A DNA stretch of 21,913 nucleotides from a virus: IMG/VR virus record IMGVR_UViG_3300035698_007790, positions 1 to 21,913 of that record. One strand, written 5' to 3'. The notes below the pieces were generated by a model. It was not told the origin of the DNA. It ran no database searches and saw only the letters and a list, made by a program, of their open reading frames with translations. Positions 1,904 through 18,518 of the stretch are shown piece by piece; position 1 is the first letter of the stretch, and each line of letters starts with the position of its first letter. Both the position numbers and the translations under genes were made by a program.

Positions 1904-3217
1904 TTAACGCCCTCCCTGTCGTGCTTTTTGATATTGTAAAAATCTATCATCAACATCATTTTCTTGTGATCCTTGTTGAAAAATAGACTCTGCTTTAGAT
2001 GCTGGAGTTGAAACAATTTCTTGCCATTGCTCATCAAAGAATTTATCATCTGCGTCTACCCAAGAAGTTCTATCCAAAACATCCTTCATTGTTTTCTTGA
2101 TGTCTGCTTCATCTCCAGAATTCAACTTAGATATTTCTTCTGCTGTTAAAGCTCCAGTAGATAGTGCTTTACTTAATCTAAAAGCATTCTTAGTAGTTTG
2201 CTTCAACTGTGCTGTAAATTCTGTACCTGTTGTTGGCTTATCTGGATCTGGAACTGTCTCAGATAACATATCAACAATCCCCTGAATTACCCTGTTCTGA
2301 TTTGTTAAGATAGGGGAAAGAGCTAAAACCATTTCACGAGTCATACCAATTAACTCAGCTCTACCTGCCTGAGCATTTTCAGGCTTAACTTCACCTAGTC
2401 CTAATTTAGCACTAAATCGCTTTATCTTTCCTGTTGCTATCTGAATAAATCCTAGTCCGCCCTGCTCTTTAACAACTCTCTTAGCAGCTGCAACCATCCC
2501 GGATGATGCTTGTTTAATACGATTAAAATTAGAAATAGATTTAACAGCATCTTTAATTTGAGTTTCTTGAATTTTACCAATAGCTGAAATTTCACCAGCT
2601 TTTAGTTTTCCAGATTTAGAAATAATACTTTTTGGTCTACCTTGTGGCGTTAAATCTGTAACTATAGAATCACTCTCAACGGTATCTTCAACCTTTTCCG
2701 AACCACCGACAACATTACTAACAGTAATCTGAGACAAAACATGAGGTTGCTGAACAAATCCTTGAGGACTAACCGCGCCTAAATCTTCTAAGTCTTTAAT
2801 ATTCTTAGCCATAGAAGGGAATTTAATTGCAAGTTCAGTAGATGAAACACCATCAATAACGCTTTGTTTAAAGTTTGATGCAAGCTCCTCTTCACGTTGA
2901 ATCTTCTTTTCGGCAGGTGAGGCAGACTTTCGCGTTAATTCATAATTACCATCTTTAGTTAATTTCAGAGAAGGTATTAACTTACCCGCCCCTACGTTAT
3001 CTCCTGTTAATTCACCGAAATTCTTAATTGCCATAGCATTTGCTTTTTTCTGATTACTAACCTTAGTAGCCGCATCTCTTTCTTTATCAATTCTTGCAGA
3101 AATGTCATCTGCCATACTATATAATTGCTTGCTGGGCGCTCCTGTTCCATATCCTGGACGAAATTCTGGAAATAATATAGCCGCTCTCTGCATTAATATC
3201 TGATGTAAACTACTCAT
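1904..3217 (-). CDS. Probable internal virion / DNA ejection protein (437 aa)
   Basis: This is a charged, mainly helical protein with a Gln/Lys-rich N-terminal half and a central RKSASPAEKKIQREEELASN segment. It has no membrane segment and no recognised enzyme motif. Its start codon overlaps the stop of the gene before it in TAATG, a sign of coupled translation. It lies between two glycine-rich ejection-type proteins in the late operon, so a role as an internal capsid protein delivered with the DNA is likely by synteny with P22-like phages. I do not recognise the family from the sequence. A minor structural protein of the tail is the main alternative. Confidence 0.55.
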   Translation of the reverse strand: MSSLHQILMQRAAILFPEFRPGYGTGAPSKQLYSMADDISARIDKERDAATKVSNQKKANAMAIKNFGELTGDNVGAGKLIPSLKLTKDGNYELTRKSASPAEKKIQREEELASNFKQSVIDGVSSTELAIKFPSMAKNIKDLEDLGAVSPQGFVQQPHVLSQITVSNVVGGSEKVEDTVESDSIVTDLTPQGRPKSIISKSGKLKAGEISAIGKIQETQIKDAVKSISNFNRIKQASSGMVAAAKRVVKEQGGLGFIQIATGKIKRFSAKLGLGEVKPENAQAGRAELIGMTREMVLALSPILTNQNRVIQGIVDMLSETVPDPDKPTTGTEFTAQLKQTTKNAFRLSKALSTGALTAEEISKLNSGDEADIKKTMKDVLDRTSWVDADDKFFDEQWQEIVSTPASKAESIFQQGSQENDVDDRFLQYQKARQGGR

Positions 3218-4125
3218 TATGATCCACCTCCTGCACCGCCACCAGCTCCAGCCTTAAGAAGTGCCATAGCCATTTTTTCTGATTTCTCTTTACTCTCTTT
3301 TATACTTGTTTGATTTGTTGTATATCCGAACTTATGTGTATTACTAGATCCAGCAAAACCACTAACTTCACCCGCCATTTTCATAAAAGTACTTGGACCT
3401 TTAGTTACAATAGTATTCAATGGTGTACGTGTTTGATCTTGCATTAATCCAATCCTTATTAACTCTTCACCTCTAGCACGTTGAAATTCTGTATATCCTC
3501 GACGAGCTTCTTCATCTTTTAATAATCTTCCAATCTGTGCTTGTTCTTGTAACTGTCCAAGTAATCCAGACTTTGTTCTAGATAAGTTTTGTAGTCCTTG
3601 CGCTCCTGCTATACGCTCAGATGAAACTCTTGATTGACCAGTATTAAATAAATTTGCTAAGAATTGACCTCTTTGATTAGATAAATCTGCATTTAAACTT
3701 GCTGTATCACGACCACGACCGCTACCAAATACTCCACCTGTTCGTGCAGCTTCTTGATTAATTCTATCTTGCGCCTCTCCACCAGATTTAGCTAAAGCAC
3801 GACTAAAGTCTGCAAAACCACTCGAAGGATCATCTGGGTTAAACTTAAACTTCTGACTTGCTAAATCAGATAATGTAGACTCAGAAGTCTTTAAGGCATC
3901 GCCAGATATTAAATCTTTAAGCCCTTGAAGTGATTCTAACTCTCCCATAGTCTGGTCAAAATTCCCTAAAGGTCCATCAAATCCTTCACCTAAAGTAATT
4001 CCACCACCAGTACCAGTAGAGGCTAAAGTCTCTAACGCTTTAATAGATGCTACCTGCTCAGGCCTAAATTGAGTAATTGGATCAAACTCTCTAGTTTTAG
4101 TCCCTCTTATTCCCAAAAATGCCAT
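3217..4125 (-). CDS. Probable internal virion protein (302 aa, glycine-rich tail)
   Basis: The start at 4125 follows GGGAGAAGG. Residues about 75-250 are strongly helical and rich in Gln, Arg and Ala, for example RTGGVFGSGRGRDTASLN and QLQEQAQIGRLLKDEEARRG. The C-terminus ends in a hydrophobic glycine/alanine run (LLKAGAGGGAGGGS). Small helical proteins with such a tail commonly open the ejection-protein gene trio of podoviruses (P22 gp7-like position). The assignment rests on gene order, length and composition. Its stop overlaps the next start by one base. Confidence 0.55.
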   Translation of the reverse strand: MAFLGIRGTKTREFDPITQFRPEQVASIKALETLASTGTGGGITLGEGFDGPLGNFDQTMGELESLQGLKDLISGDALKTSESTLSDLASQKFKFNPDDPSSGFADFSRALAKSGGEAQDRINQEAARTGGVFGSGRGRDTASLNADLSNQRGQFLANLFNTGQSRVSSERIAGAQGLQNLSRTKSGLLGQLQEQAQIGRLLKDEEARRGYTEFQRARGEELIRIGLMQDQTRTPLNTIVTKGPSTFMKMAGEVSGFAGSSNTHKFGYTTNQTSIKESKEKSEKMAMALLKAGAGGGAGGGS

Positions 4126-4136
4126 ACCCTTCTCCC

Positions 4137-4277
4137 TTATGGTAATTTACTTTCAATCTCAGTAAGTACCTGTCTTATACTTGTAAAATATTCATTTAAA
4201 ATCTTCTGCATTTCCGCTTCCTCTGGAGTCTTCGGAACAGGAAAAATAATATCGTTTGGCATGTTTAAAGTTGCCAT
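4137..4277 (-). CDS. Small protein of the late operon (46 aa)
   Basis: This is a short complete frame, MATLNMPNDIIFPVPKTP then a charged helix ending EIESKLP. Its ATG overlaps the stop of the gp10-like gene as TAATG, and its stop is 11 bases before the next start, so it fits exactly into the coupled operon. There is no membrane segment or signal peptide. The proline-rich N-terminus followed by an amphipathic helix would suit a small virion or chaperone-like component. The function is unknown. Confidence 0.6.
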   Translation of the reverse strand: MATLNMPNDIIFPVPKTPEEAEMQKILNEYFTSIRQVLTEIESKLP

Positions 4278-6157
4278 TATTGTCTAAACTCCCTTGACAT
4301 ATAACTAATAATAAACTGTTTAATTGCTAATGTTTCGCCTAGATTCCCATTAGAAAATCTAAATCTAATTTGAGATGATACAACATCAAAGTAAAAAATA
4401 TCTGGGGAATCAATCCCGGGATAACTGTCAGTTAATGTCATCGGGCTATCAATCATCTCAACCCACGTAGAACCTTGATCTATTGAATACTCTACCTTAA
4501 CATCTCCACCCTTTGCCCAAATCTCTAACTTATTCCACCTAGAAATTTTCTGTTGTGAATCTTGGAAATCTTTTGATTCCCACAAAGCATTTACAGCGAC
4601 ATCATCATCATTATTAGTTACACTAGAAGATTTATATGTATAGCCATCCGAATCAGATATATTTATAACATCAAAACCTTTAGATAATCCTGATCCATCC
4701 CAACGTGACGTGTTTTCATCCCACGTACCTACCATCTCATCCCAAGTTAATCCAGATGTCGCATCACCTAACCATGCTGAATTAGAATTTGTACGCTTAT
4801 CTTTTAATATAATTCCTGTTTCATAATTATATTTATAAATTGTATCTCCAATGGTTGATGAACCAATAGGTATTCCAAACCAAACTTCTTTTTTCTCTCT
4901 AACAACTACTGACCATGACTTCTTGGCATATTCTGGATTAATAGTATCTCTAATCTCTTCATTAATTTTTTGTGATAAAGACCTTGTATTAACACCATTA
5001 AATATATAAAGACCATCTTTTGCTAAGAATATTTGTTCGCCCGACGGTATATTCTGTATTGCACCATTAGCAATGGCACCAACACCAGTTGCCTTACGAT
5101 CAAATTGAAATATTGCAGATCCACTGATCAAATAACCTAAATAAATAGATTTCTCTTTATGAACACATACATAATTACCAAATAAATTAAGACCAGTAAC
5201 ACCTTCACCATCTTCAACTAAATCAAGTGAGCCAGCGTTACCGCTTCCCCAAGTTTCAGGGTCTGCTGTATCTGACCATTGAACTCGTTGCGTAATATCT
5301 GTTCCACCTTGAATATTTGCACATACTAAATATGTTTTATATTCTTGAATAAATTTTGCTACTGGAGGCGTTCCACCTAATACTGCTGTGTCTCCAGAGG
5401 ATGTCCATTTACGTATTGCATCAATTCCATTTGTAATACATAGAATAACTGATCCACTTAATAACGGTACTGCCATATCAATTAAATCTAAAGATGTTCC
5501 AGTTAAATCTGTTCCTGTAATATCAACCCATAATTGGCTATTTGCATTATAATGCTCAATCTTATCAAGACCAATCCTTACATTATATCTAATTTCTGAT
5601 CGTATAAATTCACGACCACCAACTATCTCAACTTGAGTTGGAAAAACAATTGCTACAGCACCCCACGATCCATTAGCCATTGTCTCAGTTGTAGGTATTG
5701 TTGAGGTATCACCAGCATTAACAGTAACATCCATCGTGTCTCCTGCTCCAGCAGATGCTGCAACACTTTCTGGCTGTGCTGTCATTGAAGTAGCATATGT
5801 ACTACCAGCACCCGCAGCTAAATTAATAGCAGCAATCAAGTTGTCAATAGAGGCGGAAGCCGAGCCACCAATAAGTACATTGCCATCTACGTCAGTAAGA
5901 GAAGTTTGAAAAGTATATGTCTTAGTTCCAAGAACAACAGTTTCTGTATTACCTGCATTAGCAGCTAAAGTAAGAACCACATTCCCAACTATTCCGCCGA
6001 GTTGTAGAGTTCCATTCCGCTTAGATAATATGCCACGAGATACTTCAAAGTTTTCACTATTCCTAGCAGAATTATCCGAAATATATTCAGCAGGTTGCGA
6101 AATGTCAATACCTTCTATAAGAAGAACTGAACCTTTATTTTTTTCTCTTAATGCCAT
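4277..6157 (-). CDS. P22 gp10-like tail hub / DNA-stabilisation protein (626 aa)
   Basis: The N-terminus has the pattern of gp10-like phage stabilisation proteins: a GIDISQPAEYI segment, then ARNSENFEVSRGILSKRNGT, meaning a tail protein fold in which a loaded list of parameters is followed by 'kRnGt'. The remainder is a run of beta strands with many WxD/WxE turns (TSGLTWDEMVGTWDENTSRW at about 470-490), as expected for a beta-propeller-like nozzle. Between about residues 55 and 165 is an Ala/Gly/Thr-rich insertion with ETVVLGTKTYTFQTSL and ASIDNLIAAINLA, which resembles a domain that recurs in many phage tail proteins. It probably closes the portal channel and binds the fibres. It lies after the collar-type gene and directly before the ejection genes. 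Confidence 0.65.
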   Translation of the reverse strand: MALREKNKGSVLLIEGIDISQPAEYISDNSARNSENFEVSRGILSKRNGTLQLGGIVGNVVLTLAANAGNTETVVLGTKTYTFQTSLTDVDGNVLIGGSASASIDNLIAAINLAAGAGSTYATSMTAQPESVAASAGAGDTMDVTVNAGDTSTIPTTETMANGSWGAVAIVFPTQVEIVGGREFIRSEIRYNVRIGLDKIEHYNANSQLWVDITGTDLTGTSLDLIDMAVPLLSGSVILCITNGIDAIRKWTSSGDTAVLGGTPPVAKFIQEYKTYLVCANIQGGTDITQRVQWSDTADPETWGSGNAGSLDLVEDGEGVTGLNLFGNYVCVHKEKSIYLGYLISGSAIFQFDRKATGVGAIANGAIQNIPSGEQIFLAKDGLYIFNGVNTRSLSQKINEEIRDTINPEYAKKSWSVVVREKKEVWFGIPIGSSTIGDTIYKYNYETGIILKDKRTNSNSAWLGDATSGLTWDEMVGTWDENTSRWDGSGLSKGFDVINISDSDGYTYKSSSVTNNDDDVAVNALWESKDFQDSQQKISRWNKLEIWAKGGDVKVEYSIDQGSTWVEMIDSPMTLTDSYPGIDSPDIFYFDVVSSQIRFRFSNGNLGETLAIKQFIISYMSREFRQ

Positions 6158-6166
6158 TAATTATCC

Positions 6167-6859
6167 CTATGCAGTTCTTTGCCATACATATTTTGTGATA
6201 TAAGGCTGAAGATTGTTGTGAGCAGATCCTCCACCAGTTGAACCAGTATTCATACTTCCCGGATTTTCGTCATTTGCATAATTTGCTATCCCACCATTTG
6301 AGCTATCTGGCGCGCCAATACCCACAGTATGAGTGTGAGCAGGAATTTCATCTGTTGTTAAGGTATGTGTTTTAGAACCACCTGTTTCATCTAAAGTGTC
6401 AAATTCTGTCTGTCCTGAATCAAGACCTACAATAACTTTACCTTCAATAGCTGTCCAAGTACCTAAGCCAAATAAAGTCGCAGGATTTGTGCTAACACCT
6501 AATGTTACAACAATCCCAATAGGATAAACTGCTGCTAATGCACTTAAAGCACCAGCACTAGTAATCTGAATATCATTGTCATCTTCATCAGTAAAAACAA
6601 GCTCTGCTTTACCACTAATTGTCTGCGCTCCAAGAATAGGTTTACCAGTTGCGCCAGTTCCTAAATCTGCTTGCTCAATAAGAGATACTTTCTTATGCTT
6701 ACCCGCATCAGCATCTTGACCGCTAGACTGATAATTATGGTCTACTTCTAAAATCTCTCTGTTCTGAGTTTTAAATTCACGAATCTTGTTGTCGCCAAGA
6801 GCAATTTGATCGCTTCCAGCTGGGCTTGCTTCATCTATTCCTGTAGTTGGTATTGTCAT
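6167..6859 (-). CDS. Tail fibre / collar-domain protein (230 aa)
   Basis: The C-terminal half carries the hallmark pattern of phage tail-collar proteins: YPIGIVVTLGVSTNPATLFG (about 111-130), then LGTWTAIEGKVIVGLDSG, then EIPAHTHTVG and finally HNNLQPYITKYVWQRTA at the very end. In such proteins the histidine-rich HTH and LQPY segments form the receptor-facing tip, often with bound metal. The N-terminal ~100 residues (VDHNYQSSGQDADAGKHKKV) look like a short attachment and shaft region. At 230 residues it is a short fibre or spike rather than a long fibre. It likely contributes to host recognition. Start at 6859 follows AGGAG. Confidence 0.8.
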   Translation of the reverse strand: MTIPTTGIDEASPAGSDQIALGDNKIREFKTQNREILEVDHNYQSSGQDADAGKHKKVSLIEQADLGTGATGKPILGAQTISGKAELVFTDEDDNDIQITSAGALSALAAVYPIGIVVTLGVSTNPATLFGLGTWTAIEGKVIVGLDSGQTEFDTLDETGGSKTHTLTTDEIPAHTHTVGIGAPDSSNGGIANYANDENPGSMNTGSTGGGSAHNNLQPYITKYVWQRTA

Positions 6860-6869
6860 AATCTATCTC

Positions 6870-7385
6870 CTAATTTTTATCTAGTAGTGCATTTATATCT
6901 TTTAAATATTTCTTACCTTTTTTTCCAATATTTCCACGTGAAACATTTCCGGCACCTGAATGATATGCAGTGATTAGAGCATCTCTTGTTGGCGCCACTC
7001 CTTCACTAGCTAAGTTCATTGATGTTACTTCTAAAGCTTTACTTGCAATCTCTCGTCGTCTAGTTCCGAGAGCAGCTTCTTTAAAGGTTAAATTTCTAGT
7101 GTCAGGGAAATGTTTCTTAACATCTGTAAACATATCTTTTTTTATTTGAAATTCCCCTAAAGCACCATCTTCATTCTCTACTAACCTTGCAGGGTTAGTA
7201 TTATTAGATGATTCAATAAATGATATAGCATTCAGAATGTTATTATTAACATCAACGCCACTAACATTACTCTGAGACATTAGACTAGCAAAAGATGATC
7301 TCTGATCACCTTCTGTTAAACCAAACCTGTCTCTTTCTTCTTGTGCCGGTGCGCCTGATAATAATTCTGCAATATTAAATGCCAT
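6870..7385 (-). CDS. Virion-associated lytic transglycosylase (SLT-like)
   Basis: From the ATG at 7385 the product has 171 residues. It carries the SLT signature: AISFIESSNN with catalytic-type Glu58, GALGEFQI (74-81), and LITAYHSGAGNVSRG near 135-150, which matches the AYNxGxG region. The enzyme should cut the glycan strands of peptidoglycan during DNA entry. I preferred this start to the upstream one at 7427 because it begins inside the end of the adaptor gene with GGAAGG upstream, and because the extra 14 residues look like out-of-frame adaptor coding. A parS-like palindrome lies inside it. No signal peptide is present, as expected for a particle-borne enzyme rather than a lysis enzyme. 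Confidence 0.75.
   Translation of the reverse strand: MAFNIAELLSGAPAQEERDRFGLTEGDQRSSFASLMSQSNVSGVDVNNNILNAISFIESSNNTNPARLVENEDGALGEFQIKKDMFTDVKKHFPDTRNLTFKEAALGTRRREIASKALEVTSMNLASEGVAPTRDALITAYHSGAGNVSRGNIGKKGKKYLKDINALLDKN
6930..6945. promoter_or_regulatory. parS-like palindrome, imperfect copy
   Basis: The 16 bases match the bacterial parS consensus TGTTTCACGTGAAACA at 13 positions, with CACGTGAAACA exact on the right side. It lies inside the transglycosylase gene, where it encodes part of the AYHSGAGNVSRG motif, so coding constraint could explain it. It is the weaker of two copies in the window. Confidence 0.35.
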
Positions 7386-8028
7386 GATAAGTAACACCTT
7401 CCATACTTTGTGTATTTTCATCGTCATTCATCTTTAGTTTAGTTAAATCACCGTTATAGAATTCACGCCAATAATTCGATTCCTCAAATGATTCAAGCCC
7501 AGCATAAACTTCAGCAAGAATTCCGGCTCGTAACATCCTTCGATACCTTTCAGAGAAAGGAACAGGGTCTGTTAATGCAGTTATCTCTGTATAATTTTCT
7601 GTAGAATAATTTAATGAATATTTATATGCAATGCTATCAGGCACAGGCCCGATATATATTGTTCCACTATAAATACAGAAATCAATTGGAACGCCGCTAT
7701 CACGATTAGCGACAGTAGTTAATAAACGATCTCCATATTTATCATCATATGATTGCTTATTTAACTTGTTTAGTGTTCGTGTCATAGTTCCAGCATTATC
7801 AACTAATGTAATATTGCCAATTATATGACCGAAGTCAGTTGGTAGGGTTGTACTGTAATCTCCAAGTGTTACTAAAGAAGTTGCGAAAGCTTCTGTCTTA
7901 TAATCTTCAGTACGCAATTGCAAACGAATGTCAGCAATAATGTCCGTCGCTGCTTCATATATCTCAGAATCTTTATCCGTACGGATTAAGGTATTCTTTA
8001 CATATACTAGTAATTCTGCTCCTGTCAT
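7375..8028 (-). CDS. Head-to-tail adaptor (connector) protein, P22 gp4-like position (217 aa)
   Basis: The protein starts with a helical region (LLVYVKNTLIRTDKDSEIYE) and a DIIADIRLQLRTEDYKTEAF segment. It then has beta structure with TLPTDFGHIIGNITLVDN and a YIGPVPDSIAYKYSLNY segment, and ends with helices (SERYRRMLRAGILAEVYAGL). This helix-strand-helix order, with 'adaptor' style LPxDF and YxIxPxP patterns, is that of phage connector proteins that bind the portal ring. It would join the portal to the tail nozzle. The stop overlaps the transglycosylase start by 11 bases. Confidence 0.7.
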   Translation of the reverse strand: MTGAELLVYVKNTLIRTDKDSEIYEAATDIIADIRLQLRTEDYKTEAFATSLVTLGDYSTTLPTDFGHIIGNITLVDNAGTMTRTLNKLNKQSYDDKYGDRLLTTVANRDSGVPIDFCIYSGTIYIGPVPDSIAYKYSLNYSTENYTEITALTDPVPFSERYRRMLRAGILAEVYAGLESFEESNYWREFYNGDLTKLKMNDDENTQSMEGVTYHGI

Positions 8029-8037
8029 AATCTATCC

Positions 8038-8478
8038 TTATGCAAAAGTTTTTAATTCATCAAGTAGAACTTCTTTGCGAATGTCTTGTTTTCTTTTCTT
8101 GTGCGCTTGCAATTCTTTATCTAAGTTTTCAGTCTTAGTAGCATAGATTGACTTCATCTTTTTTAATTCTTCATTCTCTTTTGCAAGGTTGTCTTCTTTT
8201 TCTTTCCATTGCTTTTTGAGAGTCTCAATTCTTAGGATTTCATTGTTGTTTCTAATCTTAACTTCATTAGCTTTTTTAAGAACTTCTTTTGCATCAATGA
8301 TACCTTTACATAATTTTTCTTTTTGCTTTAATGATTTTAAAACGCCTTCTTGCTCTGTTTTAAGACGAAAAATTTCTTGAGAATCTTTTGCTGCTTTTTG
8401 AAACTTTACTTCATAAGATGCAATCTTAGAATTCAATAAATCGTAAGCTTGCTCAATCTTCTTAATTATGTCTTTCAT
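8038..8478 (-). CDS. Coiled-coil protein of the late operon (146 aa)
   Basis: Nearly the whole length is predicted helix with abundant Lys, Glu and Leu and no proline or glycine breaks, for example KEVLKKANEVKIRNNNEILR and KKMKSIYATKTENLDKELQ. It is therefore a long coiled coil. It starts at 8478 with AGGAG upstream and lies between the triple-repeat protein and the adaptor. A tail-fibre chaperone, a rod-like virion part or an assembly factor are all possible. No family is recognised. Confidence 0.6.
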   Translation of the reverse strand: MKDIIKKIEQAYDLLNSKIASYEVKFQKAAKDSQEIFRLKTEQEGVLKSLKQKEKLCKGIIDAKEVLKKANEVKIRNNNEILRIETLKKQWKEKEDNLAKENEELKKMKSIYATKTENLDKELQAHKKRKQDIRKEVLLDELKTFA

Positions 8479-8490
8479 TTTATCATTCTC

Positions 8491-9006
8491 CTATTCTGCG
8501 TCTGCATCTAATTTAGCATTAAGAGCATTTACATTGGTAACAACTGAATTTAATAATGTATATAATGCACCTTGACTCATGCCAGCATTTATAATTGCCG
8601 TATTACGATCAACTACAGATTGTGCATTAACAACATCCGTAATCGCAAGAACTGAATTGTAATCTGTGTCTGCTACGCCTTCGTCACCATCTAATTGAGT
8701 AAGTGCTAAATTAAGGTTTGTAATAAAACTATCTAATAAGTTAACAATTGCAGATTGATTTAATCCTAATGAACCTACAACAGTGTCATCTAAATCAACA
8801 GCAAATGTTGCATTATAATCTGTATCTGTAACTCCACCGTCAGTGTCGAGCTTTGTTAGTATTGCATTGAAATTTGCTTCTAATTCTGTTAACTGTGCTA
8901 CTAAATCTTTTTGTCGCATTCCATTTGCTGATAAACCACTACCTTGTGATGCAAGGGCAGTTAAATCCAATGTTGATGCGAAATCTGTATCTGTTACCGG
9001 ACACAT
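8491..9006 (-). CDS. Triple-repeat protein, possible capsid decoration or fibre (171 aa)
   Basis: Three tandem units of about 55 residues make up the whole protein. Each opens with (T/A)DTD(F/Y)xxx(L/F) at about residues 5, 60 and 112. Each ends in a helix with the pattern LxxxxxNxxxxLTxLDxDxG: LEANFNAILTKLDTDGGV, FITNLNLALTQLDGDEGV and VVTNVNALNAKLDADAE. No Cys or membrane segment is seen apart from Cys2. The position directly after the capsid and decoration genes suggests a virion surface protein. Function is unassigned; the repeat is seen directly. The ATG at 9006 follows AAAAGGAG. Confidence 0.65.
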   Translation of the reverse strand: MCPVTDTDFASTLDLTALASQGSGLSANGMRQKDLVAQLTELEANFNAILTKLDTDGGVTDTDYNATFAVDLDDTVVGSLGLNQSAIVNLLDSFITNLNLALTQLDGDEGVADTDYNSVLAITDVVNAQSVVDRNTAIINAGMSQGALYTLLNSVVTNVNALNAKLDADAE

Positions 9007-9026
9007 ATTATTCTCCTTTTAAAATA

Positions 9027-9052
9027 CTCAGAGGAAGTTTCCCCCCTCCGAG
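9027..9052 (-). terminator. Hairpin between late genes, possible attenuator
   Basis: On the transcript strand CTCGGAGG pairs with CCTCTGAG (8 pairs, one of them G-T) around a 10-base loop, and is followed by TATTTT. The short uneven T run makes it a weak terminator or a stabilising 3' end for the capsid and decoration part of the message rather than a strong stop. AGTATT and AATACT lie outside the stem and could extend it. Confidence 0.5.
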
Positions 9053-9066
9053 CATAAGTATTCTAA

Positions 9067-9372
9067 TTACTGTCCTAAAACTGTAATTGCAATTGTAGTA
9101 TCTGTCCATGCAGTTGAAGCTGTTCCGTCTTGCTCTACTGAAACGACTGTGATAACTAAACCACTGTAGCTTGCTGACACTGCTGTAAAAGCTGCATCTT
9201 GTCCACCAGTAATAACTAAACCAACGATTGCATCGATTTGGCTAATACCATGATCTGCTAATGTTAATGTAATAGTATCACTTGCTGTTGCGATTGGTGC
9301 TGTTAAGCTAACAATTTTTGAATCTCCAGCAAATTCTGTTACTTTTACTAATGTTCCGACTGCTGCTGCCAT
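9067..9372 (-). CDS. Probable capsid decoration / head-stabilising protein (101 aa)
   Basis: I chose the ATG at 9372 because AAAGGAG lies 8 bases upstream; a longer frame upstream is only the shadow of the HNH gene. The product, MAAAVGTLVKVTEFAGDSKI onward, is nearly all beta strand, rich in Thr, Ala and Val, with no charged cluster. That composition and the place just after the capsid gene fit a small decoration protein on the capsid surface. The HNH gene separates it from the capsid gene. Family not firmly recognised. Confidence 0.55.
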   Translation of the reverse strand: MAAAVGTLVKVTEFAGDSKIVSLTAPIATASDTITLTLADHGISQIDAIVGLVITGGQDAAFTAVSASYSGLVITVVSVEQDGTASTAWTDTTIAITVLGQ

Positions 9373-9385
9373 AATAATTTCTCCT

Positions 9386-10015
9386 TTATAAAGCGTATTC
9401 CCAACGGAATCCCGCATGTGTTTTTCTTTTATTTTTACAGCATTTAATAATGTTAGGTCTTTGAAAACCATTCTTTCCAGCTTCAGCAAATGACTCCCAT
9501 GTTTTAATCAGTTCACCATCAACAGTTAATTGATTAACTTGTTTCATAGAATCTTTATTTGCATTATCTGAAAATTCCAAAAACTGACAATTATCAAACT
9601 TGTAATTACCATCCACGTTGATTCTATCAATGCTAGGATTCTTCATATCCTGAGCATCACCTCTATCCCATAATATAGATAACTCATCATAAGTAAGAAC
9701 GCTTGTAATCCCACGACCACCATAACGATGAAATCTGTTATTGTTAGGGTCTTCACATATCTTCTTTATGTTTGATAATATCTGCATTATTTTTCCGTGC
9801 TTGGTTCTTGCTCTTTTATTTTTTCTTTTACTAATTGAATCTCTGTTTTTTAAGTTGTATTCTTTCTGAGTTTTAAGAAGCCTGTCTTTGTTATTATTGT
9901 AGAACTCTTTCCGACATTTCTTACACTGATTATGTCTTCCATCAATCGACATTCTATTTTTTACAAATAATTCTAACTCCTTTGATTCTTTACAGCCTGA
10001 ACATATTTTGTTCAT
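9386..10015 (-). CDS. HNH homing-type endonuclease with NUMOD1 domain (209 aa)
   Basis: The N-terminus has a zinc-ribbon pattern with Cys5, Cys8, Cys31 and Cys34. The middle (about 125-155) has NPSIDRINVDGNYKFDNCQF followed by NANKDS, the degenerate HNH/AP2-type nuclease core. The C-terminus from about 158, with VNQLTVDGELIKTW, SFAEAG, NIIKCC and HAGFRWEYAL, is a NUMOD1-type DNA-binding unit. Such enzymes cut the intergenic site of phages lacking the gene and so spread themselves. It is inserted between the capsid and decoration genes, whose reading frames are intact, as is usual for free-standing homing genes. Its ribosome-binding site lies inside a hairpin with an embedded promoter (see 10023-10078). 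Confidence 0.85.
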   Translation of the reverse strand: MNKICSGCKESKELELFVKNRMSIDGRHNQCKKCRKEFYNNNKDRLLKTQKEYNLKNRDSISKRKNKRARTKHGKIMQILSNIKKICEDPNNNRFHRYGGRGITSVLTYDELSILWDRGDAQDMKNPSIDRINVDGNYKFDNCQFLEFSDNANKDSMKQVNQLTVDGELIKTWESFAEAGKNGFQRPNIIKCCKNKRKTHAGFRWEYAL

Positions 10016-10022
10016 GTATTAC

Positions 10023-10062
10023 CTTCCGTTAAATAGTTAATTTCTAACTATCATAACGGAAG
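10023..10062 (-). promoter_or_regulatory. RBS-sequestering hairpin in front of the HNH gene
   Basis: CTTCCGTTA (10023-10031) pairs perfectly with TAACGGAAG (10054-10062), and inside it TAGTTA pairs with TAACTA around a 5-base loop, giving 15 pairs with a small internal bulge. On the message, the arm nearest the gene ends in AACGGAAGG, and that GGAAGG is the ribosome-binding site 6 bases before the ATG at 10015. A transcript coming through from the capsid gene would therefore have this site paired. No T run follows, so a terminator is unlikely. Confidence 0.75.
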
Positions 10063-10078
10063 ATGATACATTTGTAAA
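10050..10078 (-). promoter_or_regulatory. Sigma-70-like promoter embedded in the hairpin
   Basis: On the minus strand TTTACA (5 of 6 to the -35 consensus) and TATGAT (5 of 6 to the -10) are separated by exactly 17 bases. Transcription would start near 10043, in the hairpin loop, giving a leader of about 28 bases that lacks the upstream arm, so the GGAAGG site would be free for ribosomes. Confidence 0.6.
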
Positions 10079-10096
10079 CAATTAATTTAGTTCACA

Positions 10097-11221
10097 CTAA
10101 ACAAGAGCTGTTGCTGCGGTATCGACACTGACGACGCCAAAGTCTTTAGAATTAAAAGTCAACTTTTGAATTCCACCGATCATACCTGTAGCATAACCAA
10201 CTTTGTTTTTGTAGTCTTTTGTTTCTTCAACCATTTTCATTGAACTATCAGCATGAGCAATTACAGCTGCTTGTTGTCCACAAAGTAAAGCACGGAAACA
10301 ATCTGCTGAAATGTCAGTTCCTGAATCAGCTGAGAAGAAGTTATTTCCAGCAACACTAATATCAAGAAATGGTACATACTCATGTTCGAAAAGAATAACA
10401 TTGTCCCAAACACCTAAAGCACCAGTGAAAATGTTATTTTTGCTTCCACGATCTCCAGCTTCACGTTGTGCTTGTGTCCACACAGCGTTGTTCTTAAGAT
10501 CAAATGCTTGCCAAGGGTGAACAAACATAACGTAGCTTTCACGACCATCAACAATAATAGGATTCATTCGTGGCATGCCATTTGCTTGTTTTTGACTTGC
10601 TTTATACTTAGCGCGAGAAATCAACTCAGGAGTCAACAAATCTGTTGCAGCTAAAGAGTCAGCACCATTAGTATAATCTGCACATAAATAACGTGAACCA
10701 AAACCTGCCGCAGTCTCTGCTGTAGGAACTTGTGCTGGTGTGTTTGACCACAACGCAGAAGTACCAACGACATTACCAGCAACATCAGTTAAAGTTGTGT
10801 TATTTACTCCACCTAATTTCAAGAAAAATTGACGAGTTTCGAATTCAGACAACCAGATAGCTAATTTACTAGCTGCGTCTGATCGCATGTTATAAGCATT
10901 CTTTTTCTCATCTAATCTACCTTTAAGGCGTACTGCATTACGTTTCTGGTCAATAGAAACACCGTCGCTATATGCAACGATTGCTTCTTCTTTACCTTCT
11001 AGTTCTCCATCACCATTAACACCATCTCCAGTTAACTTAGCAGTTAAAGGAATAGTAATTGAATCGCCTGATTCTTTCTTAAGATCATTCTTTGATTGGA
11101 TAATATTGTTTTCGCCTTCTCCAATAAAACGAGAAAGAAAACTCATATCCGATTTGTTTTTCATCAATACTTTTTGCCAAAGCTCTGGTCTTAAAGCATC
11201 AAGTGAACTTGTATTTGCCAT
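10097..11221 (-). CDS. Major capsid protein, N4-gp56 family (374 aa)
   Basis: The opening MANTSSLDALRPELWQKVLM is typical of N4-gp56-family capsid proteins. It is followed by a charged FIGEGENNIIQSKNDLKKES segment and the SGDSITIPLTAKLTGDGVNG strand, then IDQKRNAVRLKGRLDEKK and the ISRAKYKASQKQ helix. Later come YVMFVHPWQAFDL and an alanine-rich end. Length (374) fits an HK97-fold shell protein without a fused protease domain. It would form the icosahedral head, with the scaffold encoded directly upstream. There is no separate protease gene nearby. ATG at 11221 follows TAGGAGATAC. Confidence 0.85.
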   Translation of the reverse strand: MANTSSLDALRPELWQKVLMKNKSDMSFLSRFIGEGENNIIQSKNDLKKESGDSITIPLTAKLTGDGVNGDGELEGKEEAIVAYSDGVSIDQKRNAVRLKGRLDEKKNAYNMRSDAASKLAIWLSEFETRQFFLKLGGVNNTTLTDVAGNVVGTSALWSNTPAQVPTAETAAGFGSRYLCADYTNGADSLAATDLLTPELISRAKYKASQKQANGMPRMNPIIVDGRESYVMFVHPWQAFDLKNNAVWTQAQREAGDRGSKNNIFTGALGVWDNVILFEHEYVPFLDISVAGNNFFSADSGTDISADCFRALLCGQQAAVIAHADSSMKMVEETKDYKNKVGYATGMIGGIQKLTFNSKDFGVVSVDTAATALV

Positions 11222-11241
11222 GTTGTATCTCCTAAATTATA

Positions 11242-12183
11242 TTATGGGTTATTACCCATTAAGATTCTCTCTCTAGTTTCTTCTTTTAATTTGTTCCACT
11301 GACTTGTTGATAATCTTTCAGCTTGATCTACTGTCAATTCTGACTCGCTGATAATACGCTTACCACTTGCCCCATTAACAGAGGCACTACTAGATTTTTT
11401 CTTAGAGTTATTTATTACTCTATTTTCAACTTCTGTTTTCTTTTCAACCTTAGGCTGAACTGGATCATTAAATTTAGGACTCATCTTTGCAATCCTAACA
11501 ACCTGCTCTACTAATGTATTTTCATCAATCGCATCATTCATAAACGCATCATCGATTATTTTTTGATATACACCAGTTGTATCTTCTACCATTAATTCTT
11601 TTACTAAATTTGAATAGTTCTCGAATTCACTTTGACCATATTTAGCACTACCAATCTTTTCTGCAAACATTGCCTTATTGGCTACCTTCTGCTGGATGAC
11701 TTGTGCATTATCTAATTCACTCTTCTTCTCGTCGGGCTTTTCTGCTTCTTCATTTAATACTGCTTCTAAAGATTCAACTGTCAAAGAGTCTGGGTCTTTA
11801 AGTAATTCTTTAATCTTATTTAACTTCGATGCGCTTGGTGCATTTTCTAACGCTGAGTTCAATTTATCTCTTAATTCTTCGCTTTCTTTCTGAGCATCTT
11901 GTCTCTTGTGCTTGTCTGTCTTCCACTTCCAATACAAACCTTTTTCATTCTTATTGAATTTATCTAAAAGCTTCTCATCTTTTTCAATGTCATCAAAGGT
12001 TGTAACATCTTCTTTCTTTTCTTCTTCCTTTTTGTCGCCATCTTCTTCTTCCTTATATAAGCCATGCTCTTTGGCCAGATCTACTTCACTTTCATCTAAT
12101 CCTTCTACATCAAATTTTTCTTCTTTTACATCTTCTACTACTTCGTCAAGTGTGATTGTTTCTTCTGATTTATCCTCAGACAT
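11242..12183 (-). CDS. Scaffolding protein (313 aa, acidic)
   Basis: The N-terminal third is extremely acidic (GDKKEEEKKEDVTTFDDIEK). It is followed by long helices rich in Lys, Glu and Leu and a basic, serine-rich linker at about 255-272 (NNSKKKSSSASVNGASGKR) before a final helix. That is the usual make-up of phage scaffolds: an acidic disordered start, coiled coil and a capsid-binding basic end. It sits between portal and capsid genes, where scaffolds normally lie. Its ATG overlaps the end of the small upstream gene by 8 bases with AAAAGGAG upstream. Confidence 0.75.
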   Translation of the reverse strand: MSEDKSEETITLDEVVEDVKEEKFDVEGLDESEVDLAKEHGLYKEEEDGDKKEEEKKEDVTTFDDIEKDEKLLDKFNKNEKGLYWKWKTDKHKRQDAQKESEELRDKLNSALENAPSASKLNKIKELLKDPDSLTVESLEAVLNEEAEKPDEKKSELDNAQVIQQKVANKAMFAEKIGSAKYGQSEFENYSNLVKELMVEDTTGVYQKIIDDAFMNDAIDENTLVEQVVRIAKMSPKFNDPVQPKVEKKTEVENRVINNSKKKSSSASVNGASGKRIISESELTVDQAERLSTSQWNKLKEETRERILMGNNP

Positions 12184-12361
12184 TTGCTTTCTCCTTTTTA
12201 ACGGATTTTGTTTCCGTCACGTTTTTTGATAACTCGTCTTGCTCTTTTACGAACTTTGTTAATACAGAAATGAAGTCGTAAATTGTAGATGAATTTTCTA
12301 ATCCAAATCTTTCTCTTAAAAAATCACAATTCTCTGGGTATTCTTTTGAGCCATAGCCCAT
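12176..12361 (-). CDS. Small protein between portal and scaffold (61 aa)
   Basis: It starts MGYGSKEYPENCDFLRERFG, continues with a helical STIYDFISVLTKFVKEQDEL stretch, and has a lysine-rich end. The start is one base after the portal stop, with GGAG upstream inside the portal end, and the end overlaps the scaffold start. The gene is well placed and spaced, so it is probably real. A role in head assembly is inferred only from its place. Confidence 0.6.
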   Translation of the reverse strand: MGYGSKEYPENCDFLRERFGLENSSTIYDFISVLTKFVKEQDELSKNVTETKSVKKEKANV

Positions 12362-12362
12362 G

Positions 12363-14303
12363 TTATTCTCCTTGTTTTGCTGGCTGTGCGATTGCCGCCT
12401 CCGCTTGCGCCTGCAATTGTTGTAGTATTCCTTTCTTATCTGACTCTGGAATCATCGAGAGTTCAATAAGAACATTTGGTGGTATTGGCACCCCTTGTGA
12501 AGCTAATTCTTTTAAATCATTGAAGTTAGCCAGCTTTATAGTATCTGCATACAGCCCTTCGCCAATTGAAACATCGTACTTAACTAATTCCTTATTATTA
12601 AGGATATTTGAAATTATTTGGTTAGCTACATCGTCATCAACAACATTGACAAGTTCATTATTCTCGTCGACGATTGGCTCTCCATTTGTTATATCTGGAT
12701 ACGTTAACATCGCGTTATTTTCAAGCTCTGTTACTTCGCTATCTTGATTGTTTTCTAATTTAGCTAAACCACGCTCAAGAACAACATTCACAGGTGTATT
12801 GAAATTGTCATAAATAAATGCGCTTCCTAAAATACGTCTTGCAGAATCAACAGTGAAGATGTCCGGTAGCTGAGAAAGAATAAATTTTCCAACCGTCTTC
12901 TTTGTCTGGCTGAAATTGTCTATCATCTCCTGGATCATTACTAAACCCTGCTGCTGCTTTAAAAGAATGGCACGCCCAGATTGAGACTGAGAATTATTGG
13001 CAAGAAGGTCAGGATTTACGCCCGATGCTTCTTTTAAGTCTTGTGCGTTCTCTGCCGCTAGTTGAGCATGCCCTTGAGATAATGGCATTGGTGAAATACG
13101 TCCAATAGGAGGTGAATTCTGTCTACGCTTAATTACAATTCCTGAGGACGATCCAAAATTAGTTAGCTTTTCTTCTTGATCCTTTGTTAATTGATTTTCT
13201 TCAATCTCGAATCCTGAATTTGCACTTGAATTTAAATGCTTAAGCTCTTGGGTTCTTCGCTTGTTATACTCTAAATTTAAATCTTTAATTCCTCTAACAA
13301 TACCCTGAATCATTAAGGACATATCGCCTAGCTCTTCAGTAACAAGGTCAGCAAAATAAGAAATGACAGGATATGTTCTCCAATTAGGATATGAACTGGA
13401 AATACCTTCAAATAGAATGGTCTGGCCCACTACTTGAGCAAGCATAATTACAGGCACCTTTCTCTCGATGATGATGCCACCAAATTCTTGTTGGAATTCT
13501 TCCGCTTCTTCTTTTGTCTTGTATTCTTCAATTGTATTGGGATTCTCAATGAAAACAAAATATCTTAATTGGCTTTCCTTATAATAATAGTCAATAAGGT
13601 CGTACCTGTCGCCACGCTCAAGGTCTTCTACACTCTGCGCCTCTTTGCTACTTAACTCTGGATAGTCTTCGGTTTCACGTGAAACGTCCATCTTGTTTAT
13701 GATATCAAAATTTAACTTGCCGTCGCCAATCTTCTCTATTTCTTTTTCTTGCTCAGGAAAAAGGTTGACTAAGTCGTCTTTGGAAAGATCTTGTGTTACT
13801 TTTATTAGAAACTTTGAATCGGAAAGGTCGTACTCTTTGAAATGAGGGTCAAGATAATAATCAGAGGTGGATACCTTGAACTTCATATTACCATTAATCA
13901 TGTCAAACGAATAATCTATATACGGCTCAATAAAACACATGCCGCCAATTGATCCGAGCTTGAATTGTTCTGAAAGTTTTATTTCTAAAGAGCTGTTCTT
14001 AGTGACACTCTTCATTAATCGAGATGCTATCTCTGAGGAAATTGAATCTTCTGCACCCTCTGGAAATACTTTGAAATCAGACTTGCTCTGACGTTCAATT
14101 CCTGTTAGGAGCTTTATGATTGGTTTAATTTTATTTATTGTGAGGGCTAAGACACCTTGTTTTCTTAATGACTCAATGTCTGCGTCGTCCCACTGTTTGC
14201 CGCGTTCAAATTCTTGGTCTTCTTTAATTTTAGCTCTTAGTGACTGCATCCTCGTCGAGGAATACTTTAAATCTCTATAAATTCTTTTTATGATATCTTC
14301 CAT
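12363..14303 (-). CDS. Portal protein, P22-like (646 aa)
   Basis: Length and pattern match large P22-type portals. The N-terminus has MQSLRAKIKEDQEFERGKQW and DADIESLRKQGVLALTINKI, then IKPIIKLLTGIERQSKSDFK, a standard opening of this family. The central region carries DYYLDPHFKEYD and a long wing, the crown-side helices follow at about 330-470 with NLEYNKRRTQELKHLNSS and ASGVNPDLLANNSQSQSGRA, and the end is Gln/Ala-rich. As a ring at the unique vertex it nucleates the shell, is the site for the terminase motor and holds the adaptor. It is the first gene of the portal-capsid segment and has its own promoter-like sequence upstream. Confidence 0.85.
   Translation of the reverse strand: MEDIIKRIYRDLKYSSTRMQSLRAKIKEDQEFERGKQWDDADIESLRKQGVLALTINKIKPIIKLLTGIERQSKSDFKVFPEGAEDSISSEIASRLMKSVTKNSSLEIKLSEQFKLGSIGGMCFIEPYIDYSFDMINGNMKFKVSTSDYYLDPHFKEYDLSDSKFLIKVTQDLSKDDLVNLFPEQEKEIEKIGDGKLNFDIINKMDVSRETEDYPELSSKEAQSVEDLERGDRYDLIDYYYKESQLRYFVFIENPNTIEEYKTKEEAEEFQQEFGGIIIERKVPVIMLAQVVGQTILFEGISSSYPNWRTYPVISYFADLVTEELGDMSLMIQGIVRGIKDLNLEYNKRRTQELKHLNSSANSGFEIEENQLTKDQEEKLTNFGSSSGIVIKRRQNSPPIGRISPMPLSQGHAQLAAENAQDLKEASGVNPDLLANNSQSQSGRAILLKQQQGLVMIQEMIDNFSQTKKTVGKFILSQLPDIFTVDSARRILGSAFIYDNFNTPVNVVLERGLAKLENNQDSEVTELENNAMLTYPDITNGEPIVDENNELVNVVDDDVANQIISNILNNKELVKYDVSIGEGLYADTIKLANFNDLKELASQGVPIPPNVLIELSMIPESDKKGILQQLQAQAEAAIAQPAKQGE
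13671..13686. promoter_or_regulatory. parS-like palindrome, exact 14-base core
   Basis: GTTTCACGTGAAAC at 13672-13685 is a perfect palindrome identical to the core of the bacterial chromosomal parS site; the full 16 bases match the consensus at 14 positions. It is inside the portal gene, encoding Val-Ser-Arg-Glu-Thr. An exact 14-base match is unlikely by chance in 22 kb, though coding use could help. Confidence 0.55.
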
Positions 14304-14336
14304 TGAACGCCTTATTTGTTTTTGTCAAGCATTTAA

Positions 14337-14365
14337 ATAATAGTATGGTTTTGTTTATGTTACAA
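14337..14365 (-). promoter_or_regulatory. Leftward promoter candidate before portal
   Basis: On the minus strand TTGTAA (4 of 6) and TATTAT (5 of 6) lie 17 bases apart in the 79-base gap between terL and portal, which is otherwise AT-rich and non-coding. Start near 14330 would give a leader of about 27 bases to the portal ATG. A second TTGACA just before the ATG has no -10 partner. Confidence 0.45.
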
Positions 14366-14382
14366 GATAATTGTGGTTTATT

Positions 14383-15849
14383 TTATGCTGTCATTGGACT
14401 GAAGTTGTAACTTGCATCTCTGGATAGATAATCTTTCTTTGGCTCCTCTTGCACACAATAGGCTCGCATCTGCGTAATTAACATCGAAAGAGCATCAACA
14501 AGATCGATATACTCACTCTTGATCTCAACTCGCGTTACCCCAGCCAACTCACTCTCCATCTCTGCCTTCCACTCAGACTCCTGAGGAAACCAAATGCCGC
14601 CAGACTTGAAGTAGGGTTGTAACATCTTTATCCGCTCAAGCTTAGATCCTATCTTGGCATGCTCCAACGGTGTAATATTAAACCTACACCTTCTCGTCGT
14701 CATCTCCTTATATAACACCGGCTCCAAAAATTGCTGGTACTGACCCTTCTCTATACCAAAATCTCTTATCCCCCACTTCCTCACCGCTGTAAACATATGG
14801 TTGATTAATTCAACCGAATCCCACCTGCCAAATAATGTATCTAATATATACCAATGACCGTCCGGCATCAAACTACCTATTACTACCGCTCGGAAACATG
14901 AGTCCTTTCTCTTACTAGATGCTGGGTCAAGCGTTGCCAATATCTCGCCCTGTGAAGCTAAATGCTCTTTCAGCGACGGAGGATAATAACGATACATGTC
15001 CTTCTTGAAAATTCTTATCTCATCATTAACCGCCTGACACATCTTCTCCTTTAACCAAATATCTAACTTACCCTCATTACTGAACTTCTCCCGCTCTTCC
15101 TTTATCTCTTCTATAGTACTCTGCTCCGGCCACGTCGGCGTTGTAAGCTGCGCATCTGCACAAGGAATCCTATTAAACTCGAAATCCCACTTCTTAGGGT
15201 TCTTAGATAACTTCTCTATAATACACCGCTCTCCTAAGTTGTTGCCTATCATGAAGATTCGCGTCTCTTTACCTAAAAATATTACATCAGATAAAAACCA
15301 ATCCCAATCGTTCTCAGGCACCACCTCCGAACGCATATCTAAAGTGTCCTGAACATCATCCATCAAAATTATCGATGGCCTCACATCTCGGTTAAGTAAA
15401 CCTCTAATCGAAGCTCCCTTACCATATACCTCAATGCGCTTCACGCCATACTTGCCGAGATCTATCTCAAATACATCAGAGGAATTCTTTAAAACTTTCT
15501 TTAAATGACACTTTAACAACGGATTATCCAAATACTCAGTAGTGATATTACGTAACGATCTCCTCGCCTCCCTCTGATTAGCTTTTATGATGACTATGAA
15601 GTCCCACTCCGGCCTCGGATATAATAGAGCATACAACGGAAAGGATCTTAATATAAGTGAGGTTTTTCCCGACTCTCGATATCCTTCATAAGCTATATGA
15701 TTACTCTTATTTAAAAGACTGTCCGACCAGTCTTGATGAAACGTGGCAGGGGGCAACTCATTAGGGGCAGGCATAAAAATGCGCCTGAAGTCTACCAGAC
15801 CTCGACGCGTTACTTGATACATCTCTTGTAACTCTGACTTTGTCGCCAT
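14383..15849 (-). CDS. terL: Terminase large subunit (488 aa)
   Basis: The ATPase half has a Walker A-type GYRESGKTS (about 56-64), a Walker B SIILMDDVQD (159-168) with Asp-Asp, and a coupling IGNNLGE (201-207). The nuclease half has the expected acidic residues at ATLDPA (Asp308), DFGIEKG (Glu367) and DLVDAL (Asp449/Asp452), which fit an RNase H fold. The enzyme moves DNA into the prohead through the portal and cuts it. It directly follows the small subunit, with stop and start adjacent, and is the second gene of the late operon. Confidence 0.92.
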   Translation of the reverse strand: MATKSELQEMYQVTRRGLVDFRRIFMPAPNELPPATFHQDWSDSLLNKSNHIAYEGYRESGKTSLILRSFPLYALLYPRPEWDFIVIIKANQREARRSLRNITTEYLDNPLLKCHLKKVLKNSSDVFEIDLGKYGVKRIEVYGKGASIRGLLNRDVRPSIILMDDVQDTLDMRSEVVPENDWDWFLSDVIFLGKETRIFMIGNNLGERCIIEKLSKNPKKWDFEFNRIPCADAQLTTPTWPEQSTIEEIKEEREKFSNEGKLDIWLKEKMCQAVNDEIRIFKKDMYRYYPPSLKEHLASQGEILATLDPASSKRKDSCFRAVVIGSLMPDGHWYILDTLFGRWDSVELINHMFTAVRKWGIRDFGIEKGQYQQFLEPVLYKEMTTRRCRFNITPLEHAKIGSKLERIKMLQPYFKSGGIWFPQESEWKAEMESELAGVTRVEIKSEYIDLVDALSMLITQMRAYCVQEEPKKDYLSRDASYNFSPMTA

Positions 15850-16251
15850 CTATTCTTTCTTTATCGTCTCTTGGACTACCTGCTTCGCTCGATCTACTGT
15901 CTCATCTACCGCTCGACCAAACGTATTGGAAATATTTACATTCTGATCCTGCGCCCAACTATGATACGTCTTGCCCAACTGCATAGCTAACTGATCCTTT
16001 ATAGAACCATTCTTAGCCATCGTGATGATCTTGAACTCCTGCACCATCATCGCCTTCTTATAACAATTATCTAAATTATTGTCGGACTCACACATCTCTG
16101 AAAATTCTTCTTCTGTTAAGTCTTGCTGCACAAGGAATTTCTTTATCCAGTAATTGTCTTCCTCTACTAACCAATCTAATAATGCATTACCTAAATCTTT
16201 TAATGGTATGATCTTTGGGATATCTTCTTGAATGGGGTCTTTGATATTCAT
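15850..16251 (-). CDS. terS: Terminase small subunit (133 aa), by position and form
   Basis: The product is all-helical, beginning MNIKDPIQEDIPKIIPLKDL. LTEEEFSEMCESDNNLDNCY near 45-64 looks like a helix-turn-helix unit, and a basic segment and helix end the protein. It lies exactly before terL and is the first gene of the leftward operon, as small terminases are. They bind the packaging start site and feed DNA to the large subunit. No strong family motif is present, so the call depends on place, length and helix content. Confidence 0.7.
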   Translation of the reverse strand: MNIKDPIQEDIPKIIPLKDLGNALLDWLVEEDNYWIKKFLVQQDLTEEEFSEMCESDNNLDNCYKKAMMVQEFKIITMAKNGSIKDQLAMQLGKTYHSWAQDQNVNISNTFGRAVDETVDRAKQVVQETIKKE

Positions 16252-16308
16252 AAGTTATTTAACATCAACCTGGTTTTTATGCTTTTTCGGATGGCTCCTG
16301 ACTAAATA

Positions 16309-16337
16309 ATGATACCACTTGATATGAGTATTGTCAA
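16309..16337 (-). promoter_or_regulatory. Strong leftward promoter for the late operon
   Basis: The minus strand reads TTGACA, a spacer of exactly 17 bases, then TATCAT (5 of 6 to TATAAT). Transcription would begin near 16302, about 50 bases before the terS ATG. It is the best sigma-70 match in the window, so the virion block may use the host polymerase directly, perhaps under a regulator not seen here. Confidence 0.7.
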
Positions 16338-16456
16338 TGTTAATTTAGTGTTATAGTACTTGATAGGGATATTTGAGTTTATTGTGAGGGGTGGTAGATA
16401 GACATCCTACCCCCATGACTTATTAGGTGGGGCGGGGGTCTGCCAGCGTCCTAACT

Positions 16457-16545
16457 GTTAATAAGCTGTGGATAACTCGAGAATCCTGTGGATAACCATG
16501 TGTTCTAAGTGTTAACAAGCTACTTAACAGACTAGTTAACAACTA
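16457..16545. other. Candidate replication origin: DnaA boxes and short repeats
   Basis: Two perfect DnaA boxes (TGTGGATAA, the complement of TTATCCACA) lie at 16467-16475 and 16487-16495, 20 bp apart and in the same orientation, so they face one side of the helix. GTTAATAAGCT (16457), GTTAACAAGCT (16511) and GTTAACAACTA (16535) are three related 11-base repeats around them. AT-rich DNA follows to the right. Origin function is inferred from these matches alone. Confidence 0.5.
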
Positions 16546-16816
16546 GGAAGGCACGCATTCTATATATAAACTACATACACCAGACCAGACAAGTACAGAC
16601 TAACCTTCCCTATATATAGGTGGATTCCTTTACCACTCAACGATCATGGCGCTCAACCATACTCAACGCCTTATCACCCTAACATCTAACGAAAGGGCTG
16701 TCACAAGGCTGTCAAGGACTATTGGAGATTGGTAGTAATAAACATATAATAAAGAATTAAACAAAGAGTCCACAAAGTCCGTATGAGTCACTGAAAAGGC
16801 CATGCTTAAATGACGC

Positions 16817-16882
16817 TACATGGGCACCTTAAACCATTAAAATATATACACTTATATAAAATATGTATCAAATGCCCATGTA
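16817..16882. repeat. 10-bp inverted repeat around an AT-rich spacer
   Basis: TACATGGGCA (16817-16826) is exactly complementary in reverse to TGCCCATGTA (16873-16882). The 46 bases between them are almost all A and T, with TATATA stretches. It may mark an unwinding element or a protein site next to the DnaA boxes; a transcription role is also possible. Confidence 0.5.
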
Positions 16883-17187
16883 TATAAAATTCTGTATAAA
16901 GGCTTGAAAACGCTCACACAGAGAAAATTTAGCGGTGGCAAAAAAGGGGCAAAGTGGTGGACACCTACCATCAAATTTCCCATAACCTCTTACTCTATAA
17001 TCGTTTAAGTGCGCCCACCCTTGCCTCAGGAGCATGGACACATTGCCCCATGGCTTACGATTACTTATGCTACATACTGATTTTTATTAGTGCATAGCAC
17101 TGTACCAAACCAGACCCGAAACCAAACCCATATTCACTAGGTATAACCATTTAACTAAATAAAGAAAATAAACTAATCACAATACCC

Positions 17188-17282
17188 CTTGACAAACGAA
17201 CATATACTAATAACATCAAACAAACACTTGACAAACAAACATTAAACATATAAACTAATCTTAACAATTAAAACACTTGACA
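17188..17282 (+). promoter_or_regulatory. Repeated TTGACA boxes, rightward early promoter region
   Basis: CTTGACAAACGAACAT (17188) and CTTGACAAACAAACAT (17227) differ by one base, and a third CTTGACA follows at 17276. The middle box has TAAACT (4 of 6) after a 17-base spacer, so a promoter start near 17263, about 60 bases before the first small gene, is likely. The outer boxes have no good -10 and may be binding sites rather than promoters. Confidence 0.5.
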
Positions 17283-17325
17283 TCTAAACAAAACAAATCA
17301 ATACATCAACTAAAGGAACGATTAA

Positions 17326-17626: not shown

Positions 17627-17640
17627 CAAAGGGGAATAAA

Positions 17641-17952: not shown

Positions 17953-17953
17953 A

Positions 17954-18500: not shown

Positions 18501-18518
18501 AAAACAACTACGCATAAA

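Follow-up and report, generated by a model that had tools for sequence, protein, structure and literature searches.

Endonuclease gene and its genomic setting

The window analyzed here is a 21,913-nt stretch of viral DNA (IMG/VR record IMGVR_UViG_3300035698_007790, positions 1 to 21,913). On its minus strand, a gene for an HNH-type endonuclease lies downstream of a major capsid protein gene of the N4-gp56 family, in the same direction, and is followed by the gene for a protein with a TEFAG/TEFSG motif; both the endonuclease gene and the hairpin described below are on this strand (Table 1). The best PHROG match of the endonuclease was to an HNH endonuclease group (6e-13), and a homologue from a second phage, L003, matched at 1.5e-17. 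No Pfam family scored above its cut-off for the endonuclease homologues. For a NUMOD-type tail, the search gave an I-HmuI NUMOD-like match, with E values of 0.024 and 2.6e-5 for the two homologues, below the Pfam cut-off; a relative from Vibrio phage 1.245.O exceeds the cut-off for NUMOD1. A search of solved structures gave no match to the endonuclease, and an AlphaFold model of it, built with two sequences, was discarded (mean pLDDT, 39).

Two further open reading frames of the window, both on the plus strand, resemble endonuclease parts. The first (21026-21403) encodes 125 amino acids with an I-HmuI NUMOD-like tail, 36% identical over 50 residues to the tail of the endonuclease, and is likely a second endonuclease or a fragment of one. 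The second (19742-19927) is short, has an HNH-like end (VWHKDGDKHNDNLEIVTRSQ) but no Pfam match, and is probably a remnant.

Table 1. Features around the endonuclease gene and upstream of the structural operon
Feature	Position	Strand	Remarks
TEFAG/TEFSG motif protein gene	9067..9372	-	Immediately behind the capsid gene where relatives lack the endonuclease
HNH-type endonuclease gene, 209 aa	9386..10015	-	N-terminal CxxC..CxxC, HNH core, C-terminal NUMOD-like tail; from alignment
Hairpin 3' arm	10014..10039	-	Contains the Shine-Dalgarno sequence and extends into the start codon; from folding
Shine-Dalgarno GGAAGG	10022..10027	-	Within the 3' arm
Predicted transcription start	10041..10045	-	At or in the loop; from the spacing to the -10
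Hairpin 5' arm	10045..10071	-	Outer 10071-10066, main 10064-10054, bulged T10053, inner 10052-10045
-10 element TATGAT, 17-base spacer	10050..10055	-	In the 5' arm; L003 has TATAAT in the same register
-35 element TTTACA	10073..10078	-	From sequence; -35 and next 9 bases (spacer start) 14/15 identical to L003 (TGTACAAATGTATCA)
Major capsid protein gene, N4-gp56 family	10097..11221	-	Pfam Phage_capsid_3, 4.7e-55; NCBIfam TIGR04387, 3.7e-39
Sigma-70-like promoter TTGACA-17-TATCAT	16309..16337	-	Strong, 11/12; extended -10 (TG before the -10)

A hairpin predicted to hide the ribosome-binding site

RNA folding gave a single hairpin (10071-10014) of about 25 pairs between the capsid gene and the endonuclease gene. 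Sequence and folding agree on its main 9-bp stretch, CTTCCGTTA (10062-10054) paired with TAACGGAAG (10031-10023), within a helix of 11 pairs. An inner helix of 8 pairs includes TAGTTA (10050-10045) and TAACTA (10039-10034), closing on the loop GAAAT (10044-10040), and a one-base bulge falls inside the -10 element. The leader reads, in order, TTTACA AATGTATCATCTTCCGT TATGAT AGTTAGAAATTAACTATTTAACGGAAGGTAATAC ATG. The initial annotation had described the 9-bp stem with its TAGTTA/TAACTA extension, the Shine-Dalgarno (SD) sequence in the 3' arm, and TTTACA-17-TATGAT across the 5' arm, and both sequence and folding bear out all of these positions. An outer helix, ATGTAT (10071-10066) with ATACAT (10019-10014), was absent from it; this helix brings the first two letters of the start codon (ATG, 10015-10013) into the pairing as well. 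The minimum free energy had a z-score of -7.5 over 111 nt and -8.6 over 77 nt, and none of 200 shuffled sequences folded as well. An intrinsic terminator of the capsid message was rejected, as the stem has no following U-tract and did not appear in a terminator scan; Rfam family membership was likewise rejected, the sole match being at chance level, far below threshold.

The cost of opening the SD was computed for long and short RNAs. On read-through RNA it was 17.5 to 18.2 kcal/mol for any start from -60 to -300, on RNA starting at 10045-10041 it was 1.1 kcal/mol, and for 14 other genes of the window the same computation gave 0.4 to 5.9 kcal/mol. I-TevI of T4, used as a positive control for the method, gave 12.4 kcal/mol for the long RNA versus 4.5 kcal/mol for the short one. 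In a ranking of the ORF starts preceded by an SD in the fetched loci (1300 in total, with promoter-like sites upstream numbering 105), the window gene came first both for SD-opening cost and for the drop from long to short RNA (17.2 kcal/mol), and the L003 gene came second for the drop (10.0 kcal/mol).

A comparable layout was seen on the minus strand of L080, before a gene for a 178-aa protein of unknown family whose start codon lies at 6690, counted on the reverse complement: TGTACA-17-TATAAT lies within a hairpin that pairs the SD, and SD opening costs 9.7 kcal/mol on the long RNA and 0.7 kcal/mol on the short one. The device therefore occurs outside endonuclease genes as well.

A putative promoter within the 5' arm

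The 5' arm of the hairpin takes in the -10 element and most of the spacer of a sigma-70-type promoter. The promoter match by itself is not significant, since positions 2000-21913 hold 75 such sites versus 74.5 expected from shuffled sequence. Judged from the sequence, the weight of this putative promoter as evidence lies in its conserved position within the hairpin, not in the quality of the match. The idea that the -35 element is native flanking sequence, on the pattern of the TTACAARTGT found at an equal distance from the capsid stop codon in the related loci L005-L007, was not significant and was rejected, with 3 to 23% of shuffles matching it.

The arrangement recurs in a diverged phage

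One intact relative carries the device: L003 (IMGVR_UViG_3300023202_000079; L012, L149, L160, and L205 are the same contig). It has a homologue of the endonuclease, 50% identical overall, at the corresponding site, immediately preceded by a capsid gene that shares 54% identity with that of the window. Its leader hairpin has TGTACA-17-TATAAT in the 5' arm, AGGAGG in the 3' arm, and the predicted start in the loop, and SD opening costs 13.9 kcal/mol on the long RNA versus 3.9 kcal/mol on the short one. The AUG is predicted to be open and part of the SD falls in an internal loop, and repression, going by this fold, may be weaker than in the window. Alignment of the two leaders on the promoter gave 18 shared stem pairs; in 7 of these both partners have changed, in 2 only one has, and 9 are identical. 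That pairing and promoter are kept in a distant phage, despite turnover of the stem, suggests that the layout is under selection.

A broken remnant of the endonuclease gene occupies the same site in L194 (3629-3975), with a frame change and without the C-terminal part. It has no promoter and no stem that blocks the ribosome-binding site (RBS) (SD cost, 3.3 kcal/mol); a large hairpin stops before the SD. Such a loss would be expected if selection had relaxed once the gene was dead, and we count this locus as no support for the device. The initial annotation had held that its reading would fall if related insertions lacked both the stem and the promoter; both are lost only in this dead copy, which does not refute the reading.

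Further intact homologues were sought by a pattern scan, which gave, besides L003, only chance sites among the matches listed; a narrower 29-base pattern found the layout in L003 only. HNH searches of viral and genome contigs yielded no further full-length close relative, and the same device was absent from related HNH genes of other phages (L161, L162, L164, and L165), whose folds and promoter lists were judged by eye.

Proposed mechanism and its alternatives

We consider it probable that the leader is a translational lock combined with a transcriptional bypass, serving a mobile endonuclease gene whose insertion separates the capsid gene from the structural gene that follows. Read-through mRNA of the capsid operon would contain both arms, and the hairpin would hide the SD and part of the AUG; little endonuclease would be made from the most abundant message. 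A terminating capsid ribosome should not melt the hairpin core, because the hairpin is set off from the capsid stop codon by 25 nt. RNA polymerase at the internal sigma-70-type promoter would start in the loop and omit the 5' arm, leaving a short mRNA on which the SD is predicted to be open and from which a presumably active endonuclease would be translated. The core of the initial annotation, a combination of an RBS-sequestering hairpin and an internal promoter whose RNA omits the 5' arm, like that of the homing endonuclease genes of T4, holds up in silico, and the comparison with L003 and with relatives lacking the HNH gene strengthens it.

These gene-less relatives bear on an alternative, that the stem is mainly a 3'-end or processing hairpin of the capsid message (an mRNA stabilizer or RNase III site) and covers the RBS as a by-product. 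The site is empty in L005-L007, whose capsid proteins are 83 to 84% identical to that of the window and whose next gene directly follows the capsid gene; in these and further relatives the next structural gene begins at most about 107 bases downstream. A stable hairpin (-10 kcal/mol or lower) is present at the same position in 18 of 28 gene-less relatives, so that a capsid-downstream hairpin is ordinary in the group, and in both endonuclease-bearing phages the device is the sole hairpin behind the capsid gene, as this alternative would have it. However, the hairpin of the gene-less relatives leaves the next RBS uncovered: SD opening for the next gene costs 0 to 3.6 kcal/mol in 26 of the 28, and the two higher values (6.5 and 8.9 kcal/mol) come from loci without a strong hairpin. 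Within the group, only the endonuclease gene has a hairpin that both engulfs the RBS and contains a promoter, and the SD and promoter are enclosed only in the two diverged phages, by different stems. We therefore regard a processing hairpin as an unlikely explanation. Among loci L169-L202, the hairpins between the capsid gene and the next gene are mostly GC-rich, without a U-tract, and unrelated in stem sequence.

Inverted repeats that span a -10 element are typical of operators, and the repeat could instead be a DNA operator that overlaps the promoter and to which the endonuclease, or some other repressor, binds, by comparison with I-TevI. Autorepression by I-TevI is known, its operator overlapping the I-TevI late promoter (PMC2988022), and the conserved TKTACAAATGTATCA is a putative binding site. 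The arms differ, however, between the window and L003 while the pairing stays, and the 3' arm contains the SD in both; moreover, G-U pairs (10063/10022 and 10052/10032 in the window, one in L003) preserve the symmetry of an RNA but not of a DNA site. An operator in place of RNA control is, in our judgment, quite improbable; by analogy with I-TevI, an operator and RNA control could act together.

That a stable stem and a promoter-like match overlap by chance in AT-rich DNA is barely credible, even though shuffled DNA has promoter-like matches just as often and a comparable layout precedes the unrelated gene of L080: only 1 of 20,000 dinucleotide shuffles of the window leader (SD kept) rebuilt a promoter of at least 10/12 inside an SD-blocking hairpin, none of 20,000 shuffles of the L003 leader rebuilt the device, and the device recurs, with pairs changed on both sides, before a homologue of 50% identity.

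Possible origin of the two messages

The first gene of the structural operon begins about 58 nt downstream of the promoter at 16337-16309, which is a candidate source of the read-through capsid message. Because this promoter too is sigma-70-like, both the capsid-operon message and the endonuclease message may come from host polymerase. For the same reason, the proposal of the initial annotation that late messages leave the enzyme silent and that its own sigma-70 promoter is its sole source is not established. The device may separate level rather than time, giving low, promoter-limited expression within a highly transcribed operon. A bolder version inverts the T4 logic, with late read-through RNA translationally dead, a host-type promoter in the hairpin providing the enzyme either early or in small but constant amounts, and the hairpin doubling as the capsid-downstream hairpin; we offer it tentatively, as possible but doubtful.

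A search of six fragmentary records for a phage RNA polymerase of the PF00940 type gave no match, and the control was equally without a match; terminase genes were not found by tblastn in the relative L249. Upstream of the structural operon promoter, the window has two DnaA-box-like TTATCCACA words (16460-16500, minus strand).

Relation to known leaders and significance

Reviews of T4 describe an RBS hairpin with an internal promoter for I-TevI, I-TevII, I-TevIII, T4 segB, Aeh1 mobE, and the lysozyme gene e, and about half of the free-standing endonuclease genes of T4 as promoter-less cassettes (PMC2988022, PMC3014915). The window leader resembles those of I-TevI, -II, and -III in that the SD is paired on read-through RNA and transcripts from a promoter in the 5' arm omit that arm (PMC2988022, PMC3014915). 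The T4 genes, however, use phage middle or late promoters (the late ones of the TATAAATA type) and lie in introns of early or middle genes, whereas the window has a host sigma-70-like promoter, a free-standing gene, and a structural operon as the source of the read-through message. The mobE gene of Aeromonas phage Aeh1, an HNH gene between nrd genes, and T4 segB are, like the window gene, free-standing, with an RBS-sequestering hairpin and an I-TevI-like promoter arrangement (PMC2988022), but they belong to T4-like myoviruses, lie in an early or middle host operon or a tRNA region, and use a late promoter. In T4 gene e, the hairpin of a long early RNA blocks the RBS and late promoters in the 5' strand give hairpin-free RNA, with a reported effect of about 100-fold (PMC3014915); this gene differs in not being mobile and in its T4 late promoters.

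A T4 late promoter (TATAAATA) was not found in the two leaders, which have TTTACA-17-TATGAT (window) and TGTACA-17-TATAAT (L003) instead, and for this reason we class the device as a variant, not a member, of the T4-type leaders, with a host-type promoter, a structural operon, and an unrelated phage group.

The position behind the capsid gene is less singular than the initial annotation implied. In Vibrio phage 1.245.O (MG592610, Schitoviridae), a related endonuclease gene (28.6% identity over 69% of the query; E value, 2e-11) directly follows a TIGR04387 capsid gene. It differs in having an intrinsic terminator, GCCCTTACT..AGTAAGGGCTTTTTT, by the start codon, and no SD hairpin with a good sigma-70 promoter. 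This terminator (L163:1304-1340) stands behind the capsid gene, covers the leader, and extends to the endonuclease start codon. Vibrio phages 1.238.A and 1.238.B gave similar endonuclease matches, at the level of sequence matches. On sequence comparison, then, the site behind N4-gp56 capsid genes is occupied in several settings. A limited literature search found no paper naming N4-gp56, HNH, and capsid together.

Read as a lock with a bypass, the leader would extend a control device of T4-like phages to an unrelated group, the phages with N4-gp56 capsids, and to a host-type promoter. It also offers a general rule by which similar genes may be sought: a -10 element in the 5' arm, an SD in the 3' arm, and a start in the loop. 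The window and L003 form a natural pair whose stem sequence has turned over with promoter and pairing intact, and this pair favors the view that selection keeps a mobile endonuclease off the phage's busiest message.
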